This document shows, piece by piece, positions 17,726-31,181 of a DNA stretch of 41,758 nucleotides (positions are counted from its first letter, which is position 1; each line of letters starts with the position of its first letter). A model generated the notes under the pieces. It was not told the origin of the DNA, did no database searches, and saw only the letters and a list, made by a program, of their open reading frames with translations. Where the stretch lies: positions 1-41,758 of IMG/VR virus record IMGVR_UViG_3300046461_000166. One strand, written 5' to 3'. Source of the DNA: a virus. Made by a program: the position numbers and the translations under genes.

Positions 17726-17874
17726 CTCGCCCCCACCACGACAATCTTCGCCGCCGCGTCGGCCTCCGCCAGCATCGCGCGGGGAATGGCGTCTGCCGCC
17801 CACCAATAAATGCCCACCAAAAGCATACCGATCAGAAGCGAGACGAACAGGCGCTGGCCAGCGGGTCCGGGCAT
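17722..17874 (-). CDS. Small single-helix membrane protein
   Basis: A 50-residue gene, ATG 17874 overlapping the stop of the endonuclease upstream (TGATG) and ending at 17722 in a GTGA overlap. One hydrophobic helix lies at about residues 9-26 (LFVSLLIGMLLVGIYWWAA), followed by a short Ala-rich amphipathic tail. It could be a small superinfection or lysis-timing protein, which is not shown by sequence. Confidence 0.55.
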   Translation of the reverse strand: MPGPAGQRLFVSLLIGMLLVGIYWWAADAIPRAMLAEADAAAKIVVVGAR

Positions 17875-18530
17875 CAGATTTCTCCATGTGAAGGATGGAA
17901 ACCAAATTCCCGCTCGGCGTTCTTGCGAGCCGTGGCGGCGGCTTCGATGTCAGAAAATCGGCCAAGCAATATGGTTTTGCGGTTGACCCCAATGGTCGCC
18001 TGCCATTTCCCGTCCCTGGTGTTCCAGTGAACGCCGTTCACACCACTGGAATTATTCTTCTGACGTCTTTTGTGCCTTTGCTGCTCGACCGGCGTTGCCC
18101 ACCGGCAATTCTTCGGTTCATAATCGCCGTTGTTGTCTTCACGTTCCAGCGAGTATTCCGGTCCCGGCCTCTCTCCCATGTCCGCGCGAAACGCGTTGAA
18201 ATCGAGCCAGCGCTCACACACGCGAATGCCGCGCCCGCCATAAAGTTCATATCCTGGCTGTTCTGGATTTTGACAACGCTGGATCATACTTCTCCAAGCC
18301 GTATAGTATGACGTTTTGGACATGCCGTGTTTGGTCTGCCAATCACGCATTGAGCATGTGCACGACGAGGTTCTTCCAGACTTCAGACTGGTGCCAAGTA
18401 TCTGCTTTTCGACACCGCAATCGCATAGACACAGCCATTTGTATTGATCTTCGGTCCCAGCCTTTTCCACGCGTGACAGAACCAAAAGGCGTCCAAAACG
18501 ACGGCCAATGAGAGAGACGTGATTCCCCAT
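17874..18530 (-). CDS. HNH-like endonuclease with zinc finger and AP2 domain
   Basis: A 218-residue protein. The N-terminal half has a treble-clef zinc site (LCDCG then SCTC) and the block CQNPEQPGYELYGGRGIRVC ER W, followed by SLEREDNNGDYEPKNCRWA, the pattern of phage homing endonucleases. The C-terminal AP2-like domain (NSSGVNGVHWNTRDGKWQATI) is related to that of the nuclease at 1212-1739. Start chosen at ATG 18530 with AAGGAG seven bases upstream; ATG 18533 immediately before it is a less well spaced alternative. It is embedded in the leftward operon, overlapping both neighbours, so it looks like an invader that kept translational coupling. Target site unknown. Confidence 0.8.
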   Translation of the reverse strand: MGNHVSLIGRRFGRLLVLSRVEKAGTEDQYKWLCLCDCGVEKQILGTSLKSGRTSSCTCSMRDWQTKHGMSKTSYYTAWRSMIQRCQNPEQPGYELYGGRGIRVCERWLDFNAFRADMGERPGPEYSLEREDNNGDYEPKNCRWATPVEQQRHKRRQKNNSSGVNGVHWNTRDGKWQATIGVNRKTILLGRFSDIEAAATARKNAEREFGFHPSHGEI

Positions 18531-18754
18531 CATCGGCTCCTTGGCTCATAGGCTTCGAGAGCGATCCGCTCGGCGACTTCCGCGCCAGTCATCCTCGTAT
18601 GACTTTCCATCCGCTCCGCTTGCTCGGCCAGTTCCTCCAGCACGTTAGAAACGATCGCCTCGCCCGCCGGGTCGCACGGCACTCCCAGCATCCCGCGATA
18701 CCGCCGGCGCATGCTGATCCACAGCGCCAGATTACGCAGTTCCTCACTCAGCAT
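18530..18754 (-). CDS. Small helical hypothetical protein
   Basis: A 74-residue protein starting at ATG 18754 (MLSEELRNLALWISM), inside the stop region of the gene before it. Mostly helical and charged, with a conserved-looking VLEELAEQAERMESHTRM block and an acidic end. Family not recognised; a phage early accessory protein by position. Confidence 0.5.
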   Translation of the reverse strand: MLSEELRNLALWISMRRRYRGMLGVPCDPAGEAIVSNVLEELAEQAERMESHTRMTGAEVAERIALEAYEPRSR

Positions 18755-19994: not shown

Positions 19995-20044
19995 GGCACA
20001 AATTATCCCGTTTCGGAAGGCGCGGAAATCAGCCGGCCGAGTCG

Positions 20045-20410
20045 CTACTTCTTCCCCGCTCGTCTCCTGGGCGAAGGATCGGTGCCGCCGCCCATGGCCG
20101 TGCGATTGTGATCGAGGAGCTCCGGGTGGGCTTCGATCAGACGCGCCGCCAACTCCCCGTCCACGCCCATGAGCGACCCCTTCAGTATATAGTCGGTCGA
20201 CACACACAGGCGGTGGGATAGCTCAACCACCAGGAAAACCGTGGGTGAGCGGTCGCCGTCCTCGATTTTCTGAAGGGTCGTGCGATCCACGCGCAGATCC
20301 CGGCAAAACGCCGCTCGGTTGGGCTCGACCAGCAGGCGTGCCCACTGGATGCGTTTGCCGATCATTTTTTGCATGGCTGAATATGCCGCCGGTCGTTTTT
20401 CCTTCGCCAC
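20045..20410 (-). CDS. CI-like repressor, XRE-family helix-turn-helix protein
   Basis: A 121-residue protein, start GTG 20410 (AKEKRPAAYSAMQKM). The XRE-type helix-turn-helix spans about residues 18-70: MIGKRIQWARLLV, AFCRDLRVDRTTLQKIEDG, then DRSPTVFLVVELSHRLCVS. It lacks a Ser/Lys protease domain, so it would not self-cleave through RecA as lambda CI does; release must use another signal. Divergent from the cro-like gene, with palindromic operators at both promoters. The C-terminus is short and basic. This is the probable maintenance repressor or, in a lytic phage, an early-gene switch. Confidence 0.7.
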   Translation of the reverse strand: MAKEKRPAAYSAMQKMIGKRIQWARLLVEPNRAAFCRDLRVDRTTLQKIEDGDRSPTVFLVVELSHRLCVSTDYILKGSLMGVDGELAARLIEAHPELLDHNRTAMGGGTDPSPRRRAGKK

Positions 20411-20480
20411 GTTCCGCTCTCGTTTGCCGAGCCGCAATCTGGCACGGCACGGAAGATCCCGGTGATGGCGGGTATCCGCA

Positions 20481-20510
20481 TTGACAAGATGGCTACTTGC
20501 CATCAATCAT
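20481..20510 (+). promoter_or_regulatory. Rightward early promoter with palindromic operator (O1)
   Basis: TTGACA (20481-20486) followed 17-18 bases later by CAATCA/AATCAT forms the promoter for the cro-like gene. The palindrome GATGGC, TACTT, GCCATC (20488-20504) fills the spacer exactly, so a bound repressor would block polymerase. The start would fall at about 20516-20517, almost on the ATG at 20517, which would make the transcript leaderless. Confidence 0.75.
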
Positions 20511-20516
20511 GTGGGC

Positions 20517-20747
20517 ATGAGCGACAAGGCCCAATTCCACGCCGCCCTGATCCGCCGCCTTGGTGGCAAGACGAAACTGGCTGAGGCCCTTGGCCTGGAC
20601 CGGGGCTCGGTAACGCGGTGGCATGAGCGAGGCATCCCTTCGAAGTACTGGCATCAGGTCGTCAGGTTCGGCGCGGCGTTGCCCGAACCGGTCCTGGTGA
20701 CGGCGGAAGAACTGGCCGCGACCAAGCCCGAGACGGTGCCCGCATGA
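20517..20747 (+). CDS. Cro-like helix-turn-helix protein (YdaS/Cro type)
   Basis: A 76-residue protein. The helix-turn-helix is in residues about 10-45: AALIRRLGGKTKLAEALGLD, RGSVTRWHERGIP, SKYWHQVV, the YdaS/Cro pattern with the W-x-x-x-G-I-P wing. It is the first gene of the rightward operon and divergent from the CI-like repressor. There is no Shine-Dalgarno before ATG 20517, in keeping with a leaderless message. A 16-codon frame starts at 20744 in an ATGA overlap with its stop and runs to 20794; it is probably only a coupling leader for the next gene. Confidence 0.75.
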   Translation: MSDKAQFHAALIRRLGGKTKLAEALGLDRGSVTRWHERGIPSKYWHQVVRFGAALPEPVLVTAEELAATKPETVPA

Positions 20748-20787
20748 CAAGCGAGGAAAGACTCCGAAACTTTCAGAGGGGCCCCCG

Positions 20788-21039
20788 GTGCTGACGGCCA
20801 CGACCTACAACGATGTGGTCCTCGGCTACATCAAACGAACCTTCGGCCCCCTGAAGCACGCCGCGAAACTACTTGCCCGCGCCTCCGGAGCGACCCCCAG
20901 GACGTGCGAGAACTGGCTCGCGGGAGAACGTGCGCCGAACGGCGAGAACCTCGTCGAACTGATGGCCGCGTGCTCCGAGCTTGCCGAGGAGATCAACCGC
21001 CTCGTCGAAGAACGCCGTTCGGCGCGCGGAGAAAAATGA
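20788..21039 (+). CDS. Helix-turn-helix-like regulator
   Basis: An 83-residue protein, start GTG 20788. Residues about 19-60 (FGPLKHAAKLLARASGATPR, TCENWLAGERAPNGENLVEL) look like an XRE-type helix-turn-helix, as in CII-like or P22 C1-like early activators. Followed by an overlapping small gene. An activator role would fit its place second in the rightward operon, but is inference. Confidence 0.55.
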   Translation: MLTATTYNDVVLGYIKRTFGPLKHAAKLLARASGATPRTCENWLAGERAPNGENLVELMAACSELAEEINRLVEERRSARGEK

Positions 21040-21209
21040 CCCTGGCGGTCGAGTTCACGGGCTGGCGTGATGTTCGATGCCGACGAAACGAACTCCGGTT
21101 GGGCTGGGTCACGCTCTGGTGGTCGCCCGGATCGATCACAAACGAAATGGCCCGGCTGCGCGTGGCGCTGGAGCTGGCCACGGCCGAACTGAAAGCAACG
21201 CGACACTAA
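21036..21209 (+). CDS. Small hypothetical protein
   Basis: A 57-residue protein, ATG 21036 overlapping the stop of the regulator (ATGA). Contains WVTLWWSPGSITNEMARL and a helical, basic end. No family recognised; it belongs to the rightward early operon. Confidence 0.45.
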   Translation: MTLAVEFTGWRDVRCRRNELRLGWVTLWWSPGSITNEMARLRVALELATAELKATRH

Positions 21210-21224
21210 GGGAGGCGGGGATTT

Positions 21225-21458
21225 ATGTGGACAGTATCATGGCAGGACTTTCGCCGTCACGAGTTCGGCGACCCGATGCCGCCGATTGAACGCGAGACCT
21301 TCGAAACGAAGGACGCGGCCGACCGGCGAAAGACCGAGTTGAAATCGTCGCGTGTCGTGGCCTGCGTGACGCCGCTGGCGATCCGGCATCGGCGACAAAA
21401 ACCCAGGCTCGACGGCGAGGCTCCGCGCTTCAATGCGAACTGGACGCTGGCGGAATGA
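21225..21458 (+). CDS. Small hypothetical protein
   Basis: A 77-residue basic protein (WTVSWQDFRRHEFGDPMPP, then ETFETKDAADRRKTELK). Preceded by GGAGGCGG, and its stop overlaps the methyltransferase start. No domain recognised. Confidence 0.5.
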   Translation: MWTVSWQDFRRHEFGDPMPPIERETFETKDAADRRKTELKSSRVVACVTPLAIRHRRQKPRLDGEAPRFNANWTLAE

Positions 21459-22903
21459 TGAAAGTCCTCGATCTCTTCTCGGGTATCGGCGGGTTCAGCC
21501 TTGGCCTGGAACGGACGGGCGGCTTCAGGACCGTGGCGTTCTGCGAGATCGATCCATTTTGCCGCCGCGTGCTGGCGAAGCATTGGCCTGGGATTCCCTG
21601 TTATGAGGATGTTAAAAATCTCACCGCCGATCGACTCACGGCAGATGGAATTTCCGTGGATGTCGTTTGCGGAGGATTCCCCTGCCAGGACATCAGTTAC
21701 GCCGGACGAGGCGCCGGGATCGATGGCGAGCGGTCTGGACTATGGACCGAATACGCCAGGCTCATTGGCGAGATACGACCCCAATACGTCATTGTGGAAA
21801 ACGTCGCAGCACTCCTTGTTCGGGGGCTTGACAGAGTTCTCGGATCGCTGGCCACGCTCCGGTATGATGCGGAATGGCATTGTATCCCGGCTTCCCACGT
21901 TGGCGCACCGCATATCCGGGACCGGATTTGGATCGTTGCCCAGCCACAGCATACCGACACCAACGTCTCAGGATCACATCGAACGACGATCAACGAGTTC
22001 GGAGGCGTTGAATTTCGGGACAAACAAATCCGTCTCCCTCGATCGGTTCGTGAAGATGTGGCCGACCCCGTCAGCGTCGGGCTTCGAGGTAGCGGATATT
22101 CCCGCGCTGCTGGCCAGACGAGAGGCGTGCAAGGCCAGGAACAAGAACGGCAATGGGTTCGGTCTGACGCTTCAACAGGCTGTCAAAATATCAGAAACAT
22201 GGCCGACACCGCACGCAAACTGCTCAACCGGCGCTGGCCAATCACCTGGGAAACAGGGCGGGGAGAACCTTCAAACGGCGGTTGGTGGGCATCTGAACCC
22301 GACGTGGGTGGAAGCCTTGATGGGTTTTCCGCCTGGTTGGACCGATCTGGACTTGTAGGCACCGAACCCCATAAGCTATTATTGGCTTATGCCAATGCCT
22401 CGGAAGACGGACCCTTTGAAACACTGCGATCATTGCGGGGTGCGATTGACGCGCAGCGTGATGAACGGGCGGCTGGAGGACAGGACCGTATTTCTTCGGA
22501 GGCGGTTTTGTTCGCTTACCTGCGCGAACTCTCGACGCAATCCGAAGAACAAAGCGACATTCAGCCTTCGGGCGCGGAAGCATATCAAAACAGCTTGCGA
22601 AGCGTGTGCGGCGACAAAGTCATTACACGCCCATCATGTGGACCAGAAAATAACGAACAACGACCCGGACAACATCCAGACCTTGTGCAAGCAGTGTCAC
22701 GATTTTTGGCACGCCACGCAGAAGCGTCGTGGTTGGCATACCGCCGGACGGATGCCGCCGCTCCGGTAGGTTGGGAAACCGGCATTGCGAGAGTGGCTTA
22801 TGGGATTCCCGCTCGGGTGGACCGCTTGCGTGGCCTCGGTAACGCCGTCGTCCCGCAAATCCCCGAACTGATCGGCCGCGCCATTCTGGAATCGCGGCCA
22901 TGA
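21455..22903 (+). CDS. DNA (cytosine-5) methyltransferase
   Basis: A 482-residue C5-cytosine methyltransferase, which transfers a methyl group from S-adenosylmethionine to cytosine. Motif I is DLFSGIGGFSLGL (6-18), motif IV has the catalytic Cys77 in GGFPCQDIS, motif VI is VIVENVAAL (113-121), motif VIII RDRIWIVA, and the C-terminal motif is RLRGLGNAVVPQIPELIG (about 457-474). A long variable region (about 165-430) lies between, where the target-recognition domain is expected. Residues coded by 21660-22358 and 22389-22769 are also read in the +1 frame as other phage-like proteins (separate entries). It probably protects the phage DNA from host restriction. It overlaps both neighbours by four bases. 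Confidence 0.9.
   Translation: MMKVLDLFSGIGGFSLGLERTGGFRTVAFCEIDPFCRRVLAKHWPGIPCYEDVKNLTADRLTADGISVDVVCGGFPCQDISYAGRGAGIDGERSGLWTEYARLIGEIRPQYVIVENVAALLVRGLDRVLGSLATLRYDAEWHCIPASHVGAPHIRDRIWIVAQPQHTDTNVSGSHRTTINEFGGVEFRDKQIRLPRSVREDVADPVSVGLRGSGYSRAAGQTRGVQGQEQERQWVRSDASTGCQNIRNMADTARKLLNRRWPITWETGRGEPSNGGWWASEPDVGGSLDGFSAWLDRSGLVGTEPHKLLLAYANASEDGPFETLRSLRGAIDAQRDERAAGGQDRISSEAVLFAYLRELSTQSEEQSDIQPSGAEAYQNSLRSVCGDKVITRPSCGPENNEQRPGQHPDLVQAVSRFLARHAEASWLAYRRTDAAAPVGWETGIARVAYGIPARVDRLRGLGNAVVPQIPELIGRAILESRP
21660..22358 (+). CDS. Out-of-frame protein overlapping the methyltransferase
   Basis: A 232-residue open frame starting at ATG 21660, in the +1 frame relative to the methyltransferase, with no stop until 22358. 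It reads motifs that are common in a separate phage protein family found near cytosine methyltransferases: DSPARTS, YDPNTSLWKTSQHSLFGG, TEFSDRWPRSGMMRNG, RISGTGFGSLP, VKMWPTPSASG and finally LNPTWVEALMGFPPGWTDL. Over the same bases the methyltransferase frame keeps its catalytic motifs. Dual coding seems likely, but the frame may also be an old silent by-product of methyltransferase codon use. No SD is strong at 21660. Confidence 0.45.
   Translation: MSFAEDSPARTSVTPDEAPGSMASGLDYGPNTPGSLARYDPNTSLWKTSQHSLFGGLTEFSDRWPRSGMMRNGIVSRLPTLAHRISGTGFGSLPSHSIPTPTSQDHIERRSTSSEALNFGTNKSVSLDRFVKMWPTPSASGFEVADIPALLARREACKARNKNGNGFGLTLQQAVKISETWPTPHANCSTGAGQSPGKQGGENLQTAVGGHLNPTWVEALMGFPPGWTDLDL
22389..22769 (+). 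CDS. HNH endonuclease inside the methyltransferase gene
   Basis: A 126-residue HNH nuclease read in the +1 frame of the methyltransferase gene. Two zinc-binding Cys pairs (KHCDHCGVRLTR and RFCSLTCANSR) precede a third pair (ACEACAATK), then the HNH core is HAHHVDQKITNNDPDNIQTL followed by CKQCHDFWH. This is the fold of phage homing nucleases. The methyltransferase frame remains open through the same 380 bases. No good ribosome site precedes ATG 22389 (a second ATG follows at 22395), so translation may depend on coupling to the stop at 22358. Confidence 0.65.
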   Translation: MPMPRKTDPLKHCDHCGVRLTRSVMNGRLEDRTVFLRRRFCSLTCANSRRNPKNKATFSLRARKHIKTACEACAATKSLHAHHVDQKITNNDPDNIQTLCKQCHDFWHATQKRRGWHTAGRMPPLR

Positions 22904-23367
22904 GCGAACACTGGTCGGACAACCCGCCGGATCGCATCGTGACGATGCCACGCTGTCCGAGCCTCAACGCGTTGTGGGTCCGCGCGCCCGGCAAGCCGCG
23001 CGTCCGTTCGGAGGCATACCGCGACTGGGCGCGCGCCGCCGGTTGGGACGTGAAGCGCCAGCTTGTCGGTGTGCCGCCCGTGGATTGCAGATTCAACGCG
23101 CTGATTGAGGTGCCCATCACCAGGCGCGACACGGGGAACTGGGAGAAAGCCGTTATGGATTTGTGCGAGTCCGTCGGCCTGGTAACGAATGATGGAAACG
23201 CCTGCGAAATAACCATTCGCCCCGTCGCGCGCGAGGACGTGATGGTGGCGCTGTGGATGCTGCCGGACATGGGCGGGGTACGTGCCCCGGCGGCCCCACG
23301 CGTGCGGCCGGTGATGCGGCGGACGGCGCCGAAGCGGCGGACGCTGACATGGATCATGCCGGCGTGA
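22900..23367 (+). CDS. RusA-like Holliday-junction resolvase
   Basis: A 155-residue protein starting at ATG 22900, overlapping the methyltransferase stop. RusA-family pattern: PSLNALWVRAPGKPRVRSEA YRDW near residues 20-45, an Asp-rich segment (RRDTGNWEKAVMDLCESVG, about 95-113) and TNDGNACEITIRP. RusA nucleases resolve branched recombination intermediates through Asp residues that hold magnesium. The C-terminal 25 residues are Arg/Pro-rich and extra to the family. It belongs to the recombination set with ERF and Gp157. Confidence 0.75.
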   Translation: MSEHWSDNPPDRIVTMPRCPSLNALWVRAPGKPRVRSEAYRDWARAAGWDVKRQLVGVPPVDCRFNALIEVPITRRDTGNWEKAVMDLCESVGLVTNDGNACEITIRPVAREDVMVALWMLPDMGGVRAPAAPRVRPVMRRTAPKRRTLTWIMPA

Positions 23368-23777
23368 ACGCGCGGGAGAAGATATGGGCGTGGATCGAGG
23401 CCGAGCGCCGGGGCGGTCCGGAAGGGAGCCACGTCCTGCATGCCTCGCCGCGCCGGATCGCCGAGGCGACGGGCGTCGGGCTGGAGTGGGTCAGAACGAT
23501 AATGGAGCAGTGGTGCGACGAAGGTTGCCTGATCCGCGTTGAGTTCAAACACTATCGGATCGTCGAGGCGCCGAAACTGGACGGTATCACGCGCCATCCG
23601 GTCTGGTCGCCCGAGGCGCGCGAGAAGTTGGCGGAATTGTCGGCGCGCGGGCTGACGTTGGTCGAGATGGCGCGCGAGATGAAATCGACGGTCAACGCCA
23701 TCGCCGGACAACGTAGCCGCCTGGGCCTGCCGAAACGGCCGTCACCCATTCGGCGCGCGGCGGAGCAGGAGCCATGA
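23364..23777 (+). CDS. Winged-helix and GcrA-like DNA-binding protein
   Basis: A 137-residue protein. Start at GTG 23364 (GTGA overlap with the RusA stop); ATG 23349 is an upstream alternative. The N-terminal part (residues about 1-65) looks like a winged helix: EKIWAWIEAE, PRRIAEATGVGLEWVRTIM, QWCDEGCLIRVEFKHY. The C-terminal half (ARHPVWSPEAREKLAELSAR, GLTLVEMAREMKSTVNAIAG, RSRLGLPKRPSPIRR) matches the GcrA helix-turn-helix known from alphaproteobacterial cell-cycle regulators. It may redirect host transcription at GcrA-type, methylation-sensitive promoters, which is inference. Confidence 0.65.
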   Translation: MNAREKIWAWIEAERRGGPEGSHVLHASPRRIAEATGVGLEWVRTIMEQWCDEGCLIRVEFKHYRIVEAPKLDGITRHPVWSPEAREKLAELSARGLTLVEMAREMKSTVNAIAGQRSRLGLPKRPSPIRRAAEQEP

Positions 23778-23980
23778 GCCGGCAACTGGAATTGTTCGCG
23801 CGACGGGGTGGCGGGCCAGCCCGGTCCGGCTCCCGACCGGCCCAGGCCCCGACGAGGATCAACGCAAGATCCCCTCCCGAGCCGTTCGATTTCGCGGCCG
23901 CCATCGCCCTCGACCCACGCGCCGCGCCTCAGCCGGACGTGCCGGTGCCGGAGTGGCTCAGGCTGCGGACCGATCCGTGA
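23774..23980 (+). CDS. Small Pro/Ala-rich hypothetical protein
   Basis: A 68-residue protein, ATG 23774 overlapping the stop before it. Begins SRQLELFARRGGGPARSG and is largely Pro/Ala/Arg-rich. The gene overlaps the convergent ribbon-helix-helix gene at 23958. No family recognised; low confidence that it is more than an open frame. Confidence 0.4.
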   Translation: MSRQLELFARRGGGPARSGSRPAQAPTRINARSPPEPFDFAAAIALDPRAAPQPDVPVPEWLRLRTDP

Positions 23981-24152
23981 CGTGTTCCCGCCCCTTGCGT
24001 GACCGACGCTGTTCCACGGCATCGAGGATCAGACCCTCGATCCAGGCCGACAGCGTACGGCGTTCAACGGCAGCGATTCGCTCCGCCTCGCTTTTCACGT
24101 TGGGCGTCGTCCGCATCAGGATATTTGCCGTTCGCCGCTCAGAAACCATCAT
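23958..24152 (-). CDS. Ribbon-helix-helix (Arc/CopG-type) repressor-like protein
   Basis: A 64-residue protein, reading leftward. It has the RHH form: an N-terminal beta strand (RRTANILMRTTP), then two helices (VKSEAERIAAVERRTLSAWIE and GLILDAVEQRRSRKG). Start chosen at ATG 24152; ATG 24149 and ATG 24167 are in frame. It is read from a consensus promoter whose -10 overlaps the rightward promoter of the Gp157 gene (24161-24210), so it probably represses that pair of promoters. Such operons often autoregulate through a palindromic site. Confidence 0.65.
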   Translation of the reverse strand: MMVSERRTANILMRTTPNVKSEAERIAAVERRTLSAWIEGLILDAVEQRRSRKGREHVTDRSAA

Positions 24153-29879: not shown

Positions 29880-31181
29880 GTGCGAAAACCACGCCCGAAC
29901 GCCGTAATGATGGACTCATCAAAAGCCAGACTGGCAGTTTCCTATCTGCCCGTGGCCGAACTCGTCCCCGCCGAACGTAACGCACGCACCCATTCCCCCG
30001 AGCAAATCCAGCAGATCGCCCGCTCGATCGGCGCCTTCGGTTGGACCAACCCGATCCTGGTCGACGAGGCACGTGCCATCATCGCCGGCCACGGCAGGCT
30101 GGAGGCGGCACGGGTGGCGGGACTGGCCGAGATACCCACGATCACGCTGGCCGGCCTCAGCGCCGCTCAGAAGCGCGCCCTGGCCATCGCCGACAACAAG
30201 CTGGCGCTCAATGCCGGATGGGACGACGAACTGCTGCGGCTGGAACTGGGCGAACTGGGGCTTGAGGGCTTCGATCTCGGCCTGATCGGGTTCAGCGACC
30301 TGGAACTGAAGGACATCCTCGCCGATCGCACGGACGGGCTCACAGATCCCGACGACGTGCCCGAGCCGCCGGCGGAGCCCGTGACGCGCCTGGGCGACGT
30401 GTGGTTGCTCGGGCGGCATCGGCTGGTGTGCGGGGACTGCACCGACGCGGGCGTGGTCGAGGCCGCGCTGGACGGCGTGGTGCCGCACCTGATGGTGACC
30501 GATCCGCCGTATGGGGTGGACTACGATCCCGCGTGGCGTAGCGGCGAGGGTGTGGCCGATTCCATTCGGCATCCGAAAAAGGGAGCAACCGGCAAGCCTC
30601 GGAATGACGCTCGTGCTGATTGGTCGGAGGCGTGGGCATTATTCCCTGGCGATGTGGCCTATGTGTGGCACGGTGATCGGCAGCTTGTCGGCATGGCATT
30701 GGACCTTGAGGCGGCAGGCTTTGAACCACGCAACCTCATTGTGTGGGCCAAGCATAGATTCGTGATTAGTCGCGGCCATTATCATTCGCAGCATGAGTCT
30801 TGCTGGTATGCGGTGCGGAAATCCGCGACGGGACATTGGCAAGGTGACAGGACGCAATCAACGCTCTGGCAAATGGACGCTCAACAGAGATCCGAAACCG
30901 GCCACAGCACCCAAAAGCCCGTCGAGTGCATGCGTCGTCCGATCGAGAATAACAGCAGCCCCGGTCAGGCGGTCTACGACCCCTTCGTGGGCTCCGGCAC
31001 GACGATCATCGCCGCCGAGATGACCGGCCGCGCGTGCCACGCAATCGAAATATCCCCAACGTATGTCGATGTCGCCGTGCTGCGCTGGCAGGCGTTCACC
31101 GGCCAGACCGCGACGCTCGCAGCCGACGGCCGCGCGTTCGCCGACATCCAAACAGAGCGAGGATTGTCCCATGCCGCTTGA
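29880..31181 (+). CDS. ParB-domain DNA methyltransferase (N6-adenine or N4-cytosine)
   Basis: A 433-residue protein. The N-terminal ParB-like nuclease domain (about residues 20-110) shows LVPAERNARTHSPEQIQQIA, NPILVDEARAIIAGHGRLEA and KRALAIADNKLALNAGW. The methyltransferase half has motif IV DPPYGV at 208-213 before motif I DPFVGSGTT at 367-375, the beta-class order, and KPVECMRRPI. ParB-methyltransferase fusions are common in phages beside terminase and modify adenine or cytosine amino groups. Start GTG 29880 with GGGGA upstream. The early region ends and the late module begins just after it. Confidence 0.85.
   Translation: MRKPRPNAVMMDSSKARLAVSYLPVAELVPAERNARTHSPEQIQQIARSIGAFGWTNPILVDEARAIIAGHGRLEAARVAGLAEIPTITLAGLSAAQKRALAIADNKLALNAGWDDELLRLELGELGLEGFDLGLIGFSDLELKDILADRTDGLTDPDDVPEPPAEPVTRLGDVWLLGRHRLVCGDCTDAGVVEAALDGVVPHLMVTDPPYGVDYDPAWRSGEGVADSIRHPKKGATGKPRNDARADWSEAWALFPGDVAYVWHGDRQLVGMALDLEAAGFEPRNLIVWAKHRFVISRGHYHSQHESCWYAVRKSATGHWQGDRTQSTLWQMDAQQRSETGHSTQKPVECMRRPIENNSSPGQAVYDPFVGSGTTIIAAEMTGRACHAIEISPTYVDVAVLRWQAFTGQTATLAADGRAFADIQTERGLSHAA

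Follow-up and report, generated by a model that had tools for sequence, protein, structure and literature searches.

A phage C5-cytosine methyltransferase probably split between two overlapping reading frames, with an HNH endonuclease gene in the second frame

Split C5-methyltransferases are known, as exemplified by M.AquI and M.EcoHK31I (PMC3404938). In M.EcoHK31I, the large subunit carries motifs I to VIII and X, the predicted recognition domain has been placed in this subunit, and motif IX is on a second, smaller polypeptide (PMC3404938). M.AquI is split over two genes, with motif IX in the second and motif X in the small subunit (PMC3404938). Here we describe a locus in an IMG/VR virus record, within a stretch of 41,758 bases that was analysed whole and is called the window, in which such an enzyme appears to be divided between a frame, alpha, and an overlapping +1 frame, beta. 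In M.EcoHK31I the small polypeptide comes from an alternate frame within the gene of the large one, and the window seems to share this plan, with motifs I to VIII and X assigned to alpha and motif IX to the second frame. Unlike M.EcoHK31I, the window has its recognition-like cassettes in beta, a modular beta and an inserted HNH gene, and is known here from sequence alone. As in M.AquI, the enzyme is divided and motif IX is on the second part; unlike M.AquI, motif X is in alpha, but a second class of relatives (L154, L156, L159 and others) has motifs IX and X together in the +1 frame.

The hidden nuclease also has a precedent. A 2025 study of the ShiLan domain described an out-of-frame HNH hidden inside a phage methylase gene, with the host frame open through the HNH and an insertion start resembling the sequence just after the site; how the hidden nuclease of such elements is translated was left as an open question (PMC11855218). 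The window HNH is likewise out of frame in a methylase gene, alpha is open through it and the insertion starts much like the stretch that follows the site, motif IX being present on both sides (compare L063 with L277). However, the host in ShiLan is gp65, which has no similarity to alpha, and its HNH has 195 aa and occupies the third frame, whereas the window HNH is in the +1 frame of a C5 enzyme, between motifs IX and X. The two nucleases are related only distantly, matching at 26% over 94 aa in a two-sequence test (E 1e-5). A third comparison is with the multispecific C5-methyltransferases of Bacillus phages, which have a series of recognition modules placed one after another between motif VIII and motif IX. 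Beta has similar tandem modules in its recognition region, but those phage enzymes are single-chain and the modules here are in a separate, overlapping frame. Split methyltransferase and hidden HNH each have published precedent and are combined here, under selection across hundreds of relatives; this combination, cassette exchange in an overlapping frame and a family-wide selection test were not found in the literature searched, which was covered in part.

The features of the locus are collected in Table 1. A sequence-only reading had described a cytosine methyltransferase frame overlapped in the +1 frame by two further phage-like proteins, the second an HNH nuclease. All three readings are present where it placed them, beta and the HNH both being +1 to the methyltransferase frame; its interval leaves out the alpha start, alpha motif X (up to 22903) and the repeated motif IX text at 22779-22835. 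Relative to alpha, the +1 frame contains, in order, beta, the HNH and this second motif IX text. The locus has an early-gene neighbourhood, with transcriptional regulators upstream and a RusA-like resolvase, an Erf-like annealing protein and a primase/helicase downstream, and the host element resembles a temperate phage. Alpha ends at a stop that overlaps the ATG of the RusA-like gene (ATGA), an arrangement that fits translation of alpha to its end. Rfam gave no RNA families within 20000-24000 of the window. Elsewhere in the window there is a second DNA methyltransferase, whose N-terminal part is ParB-like (29880-31181; PHROG 498, E 3e-139), and the translation of 17874-18533, on the minus strand, resembles an HNH/AP2-type homing endonuclease by eye. 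For comparison, 379 loci were gathered, chiefly from viral and genome contigs and also from records of phage and plasmid collections. As many of these were retrieved by beta-derived queries, the share of alpha loci with a beta is biased upward.

Table 1. Features of the methyltransferase locus (window positions)
Feature	Position	Strand	Evidence
alpha, putative C5-cytosine methyltransferase large subunit (482 aa; ATG to stop)	21455..22903	+	PF00145 E 9.5e-41; AlphaFold model vs M.HhaI
beta open frame, +1 to alpha (TTG to TAG)	21501..22358	+	PHROG 1008; avoidance of stops and substitution rates by frame across relatives
beta putative recognition cassette 1 (TPTSQDHIERRSTSSEALNFGTNKSVSLDRFVKM)	21957..22058	+	>50% identity in 10 other loci, flanked there by different cassettes
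beta putative recognition cassette 2 (WPTPSASGFEVADIPALLARREACKARNKNGNGFGLTLQQAVKISET)	22059..22199	+	cassette comparison across loci
beta putative recognition cassette 3 (WPTPHANCSTGAGQSPGKQGGENLQTAVGGH)	22200..22292	+	cassette comparison across loci
beta motif IX, first copy (LNPTWVEALMGFPPGWTDL), directly 5' of beta stop	22293..22349	+	ungapped vs M.HhaI KLHPRECARVMGYPDSY; conserved
HNH endonuclease gene, +1 to alpha (putative ATG to TAG)	22389..22769	+	Pfam HNH (PF01844) E 5.7e-5; 42/43 distinct relatives with open motif X frame
second motif IX text (LREWLMGFPLGWTACV), +1 frame, 3' of HNH	22779..22835	+	PHROG 1008 second match; single copy here in HNH-less relatives
alpha motif X region (RVDRLRGLGNAVVPQIPELIGRAI), 3' of HNH	22817..22894	+	block pLDDT 65-97; conserved
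RusA-like resolvase, next gene	22900..23367	+	PHROG 34 E 1.6e-8

Alpha contains the catalytic PCQ and ENV among its motifs I to VIII, at residues ~2-170, and motif X at residues ~455-480, with a low-confidence linker between. Its match to the Pfam DNA_methylase family covers only profile positions 1-169 of 324. Motif IX text is absent from the alpha reading of the window and sits in the +1 frame instead; in a single-chain C5-methyltransferase one polypeptide carries both the recognition domain and motif IX, which is not so for alpha. In the AlphaFold model, residues 1-170 and motif X are confident and the stretch over the beta recognition region, at the place expected of a small domain, is disordered. 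The model superimposes on M.HhaI with a Z score of 25.3 over 196 residues (rmsd 1.7) that span alpha from residue 1 to 482, and 196 is the size of a large domain. The best reading of alpha is a complete C5-methyltransferase large domain without a small domain.

The case for dual coding draws its strength from the relatives, not from the window alone. A strict pattern places motif IX text in the +1 frame of 211 of 230 non-redundant alpha loci, and most of the other 19 have a degenerate form of it; the one clear exception is L036, with motif IX in the alpha frame. When synonymous alpha codons were shuffled in 211 relatives, the +1 stops expected in four successive blocks were 234, 105, 50 and 218, against 226, 94, 30 and 4 observed. 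The last block runs from 14 codons after PCQ (PCQ+14) to YDAEW, over the codons of motifs V to VIII. The +2 frame, as a control, had 450 stops against 385 expected. From these block-wise counts, the +1 frame is protected from ~14 codons after PCQ, near 21723 in the window, and selection on beta is clear from about there onward. For the recognition region the corresponding count of 0 against 344 is conditioned on an open beta and is not used as evidence. In alpha codons ahead of the overlap, changes at position 3 outnumber those at position 1 two- to threefold. Within the overlap, at low divergence, alpha position 1, the wobble position of beta, changes at least as often as position 3. Pairwise counts in the style of OLGenie, from 22 independent pairs, gave dN/dS-like ratios in the recognition part of 0.61 (0.52-0.69) for alpha and 0.40 (0.27-0.52) for beta. 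In the same pairs, changes that are synonymous in alpha and nonsynonymous in beta fell about threefold, from 0.411 before the overlap to 0.128 in the part of the overlap that precedes the recognition region, and doubly synonymous changes did not fall (0.571 before and 0.632 within, at few sites). The sequence-only reading had raised the prospect of a long dual-coding region and suggested looking for stops in close homologs and for synonymous constraint. Both tests bear it out, and among 112 relatives with at least 60% alpha N-terminal identity a single one has a +1 stop between PCQ+14 and motif IX. By these comparative measures, both the alpha and the beta frame are under selection across the relatives.

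The HNH has conserved active-site residues and zinc cysteines and shows purifying selection, with a ratio of 0.28 against 0.75 for the host frame over it. So weak a constraint on the host reading fits a frame that has to remain open without preserving its sequence. In the window alone, alpha, which crosses the HNH at residues ~312-438, stays open in 0.1% of HNH-synonymous shuffles. Across 43 distinct relatives with the HNH, the motif X frame is open through it in all except L191, a free-standing HNH in whose locus no methyltransferase was found. Three stops, all in L191, were counted in the motif X frame over the HNH, where HNH codon shuffling predicts 195; the third frame has 200 against 177 expected. 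The HNH is positioned between motifs IX and X, which are about 142-186 codons apart when it is present and 10-19 codons apart in 136 HNH-less loci. The HNH-less L277 has one motif IX, and its relative L063 has a motif IX and a stop before the HNH and another motif IX after it. Judged from these comparisons, the HNH is an insertion between IX and X accompanied by a duplicated motif IX, and the second motif IX text of the window is probably the original copy, a fossil kept by the alpha reading. In some relatives motifs IX and X share a frame, and the HNH there occupies the third frame of the locus but keeps its +1 relation to X.

A clear Shine-Dalgarno sequence was not seen for the window HNH. 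In at least five relatives (L065, L167, L188, L189 and L192), the window not being one of them, GGAGG occurs in the motif IX codons near the beta stop and the HNH start, which suggests that translation of beta and HNH may be coupled there. A coupled position after beta in several lineages, together with purifying selection on the HNH in many, would also be expected if the HNH had been domesticated into the methyltransferase system, for instance as a restriction partner, and were not a selfish insertion. We regard domestication as unlikely: most split loci lack the HNH, different HNH-type proteins occupy the same IX-X place in L079 (3345-3719) and L096 (3253-3615), and the family is also found free-standing and, in Staphylococcus phage CUB-EPI_14, hidden in the +1 frame of gp45, an ordinary single-chain methyltransferase. 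The patchy distribution is seen directly, and the HNH may spread by homing. The HNH-type protein of L096 is fused to the end of beta with no stop between.

The start of beta is less clearly marked than its course. The window offers candidate ATG codons at 21645, 21660 and 21723, and no conserved beta start codon was found at the several places where one was looked for in relatives. GAT is enriched at a DG site ~12 codons before PCQ (66/107 against 39% elsewhere), and no enrichment was seen at the site before GERSGLW (p 0.14). Alternatively, beta might not be a separate protein at all, if ribosomes slipped from the alpha frame to +1 downstream of motif VIII and so produced a single alpha-beta fusion. 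Such a shift would unite motifs I to VIII, the recognition region and motif IX in one polypeptide with the usual order; motif X, too, is in the beta frame in the second class of relatives, and ShiLan gp70, with LLPTP cassettes and motifs IX and X in the alpha frame, is a fusion of this kind in one frame. Even so, frameshifting is quite improbable, as the +1 frame is already stop-free and constrained upstream of motif VIII, in the block with 4 stops against 218, where a later shift would not need it. In the window the shifted chain would moreover lack motif X, since this lies in the alpha frame.

What beta contributes is indicated mainly by arrangement. On the DNA, motifs I to VIII, recognition region, IX and X follow the order of an ordinary C5-methyltransferase, and the frame alone changes. 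The beta text LNPTWVEALMGFPPGW aligns ungapped with LHPRECARVMGYPDSY of M.HhaI, and beta residues 50-283 match PHROG 1008, 'DNA methyltransferase' (E 4e-29). In Sebastisaurus (gp34/gp35) and Scottish (gp68/gp69) the halves lie in genes that are fully or almost separate and that carry DNA methylase annotations. Beta had no Pfam match, a profile search of PDB sequences gave nothing useful and the AlphaFold model of beta, from 107 sequences, was poor (pLDDT 62.8, pTM 0.27); the case for beta as the small domain therefore comes from gene order, motif IX and the fused relatives. This arrangement argues strongly that beta would be the target-recognition and motif IX part of the same methyltransferase. 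Plasmid Dcm proteins taken as single-chain controls mostly proved to have a beta in the +1 frame, and only that of Priestia (L386) is plainly single-chain. Annotated cytosine methyltransferases on plasmids of Lacticaseibacillus, Nostoc and Leptospira (L384, L385 and L388) have an unannotated +1 beta with a motif IX-like end. Plasmid pAP1 of Paenibacillus polymyxa (L387:1141-2631) has two motif IX copies in the +1 frame, LNPTWVECLMGFPLDWTS and LNPAWVECLMGFPLGWTN, with a short stretch and no HNH between them. In Mycobacterium phage ShiLan, the +1 frame of the single-chain gp70 (L380:3844-5013) can still be read as two more cassettes.

The lack of a Pfam family could also mean that beta is an unrelated phage protein with its own function, overprinted on the methyltransferase gene. 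The N-terminal part of beta (SLWKTSQ...WPRSGM), which overlies motif V-VIII codons and is itself under selection, does look overprinted. For beta as a whole this origin is very unlikely: alpha has neither motif IX nor a folded recognition domain, the motif IX of beta is at the right place and spacing, fused relatives exist, and beta is already named a DNA methyltransferase by PHROG and phage annotators. Of the interpretation in the sequence-only reading, dual coding stands. The idea that three unconnected phage proteins came to overlap by chance or pure overprinting is not supported; a beta belonging to the same enzyme, and an HNH inserted as a selfish gene of an already described kind, fit the evidence better. 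That the +1 frame is open merely through base composition or the amino-acid constraint on alpha has next to no chance of being right: the window beta does survive 6.8% of alpha-synonymous shuffles, but the family-wide stop avoidance, the frame-specific rates and relatives still open at G+C down to about 0.43 refute base composition as the sole cause at family level.

Between its conserved start and motif IX, beta consists of 1-8 units of ~25-50 residues, each starting with WPTP or similar. These units are exchanged between loci. We found 99 pairs that share a unit at 75% identity or more while all their other units are below 40%; in 53 of the 99 the shared cassette is at another position in the row, and sharing extends across alphas down to 35% identity. 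Exchangeable tandem modules in the recognition region, the mark of a multispecific methyltransferase, are present. By position, the cassettes would be recognition modules like those of the multispecific Bacillus phage enzymes (Trautner et al. 1996, cited in PMC12707154), and each may read a different DNA target.

We consider it probable that this is a two-frame split enzyme, in which alpha is the large domain and beta supplies the small-domain function in trans, and that an HNH was inserted later. Alpha would supply a complete large domain (motifs I to VIII and X) and no small domain, and beta, made from an internal +1 start, would provide exchangeable recognition cassettes and motif IX, the two assembling in trans as in M.EcoHK31I. 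A mobile HNH gene would then have entered between IX and X, bringing or creating a further motif IX, stop codon included. With this stop beta would still end properly, and as the HNH is open in the alpha frame, alpha would be read through it as an extra loop of ~130 residues and end in motif X.

In summary, the overlap would become a testable enzyme with a proposed function for each frame, and the relatives provide a natural set of hundreds of loci with long dual-coding genes, in which beta and the HNH are often missed by public annotation. The GGAGG in the motif IX codons of several relatives offers a plausible answer to how a hidden nuclease of the ShiLan type is translated. More tentatively, we suggest a widespread phage methyltransferase that may carry its specificity on an overprinted frame of swappable cassettes, whose exchange keeps two frames open, and a family of HNH genes that may exploit this gene by dual repair without splicing, in which motif IX and a stop restore beta and an open frame restores alpha.
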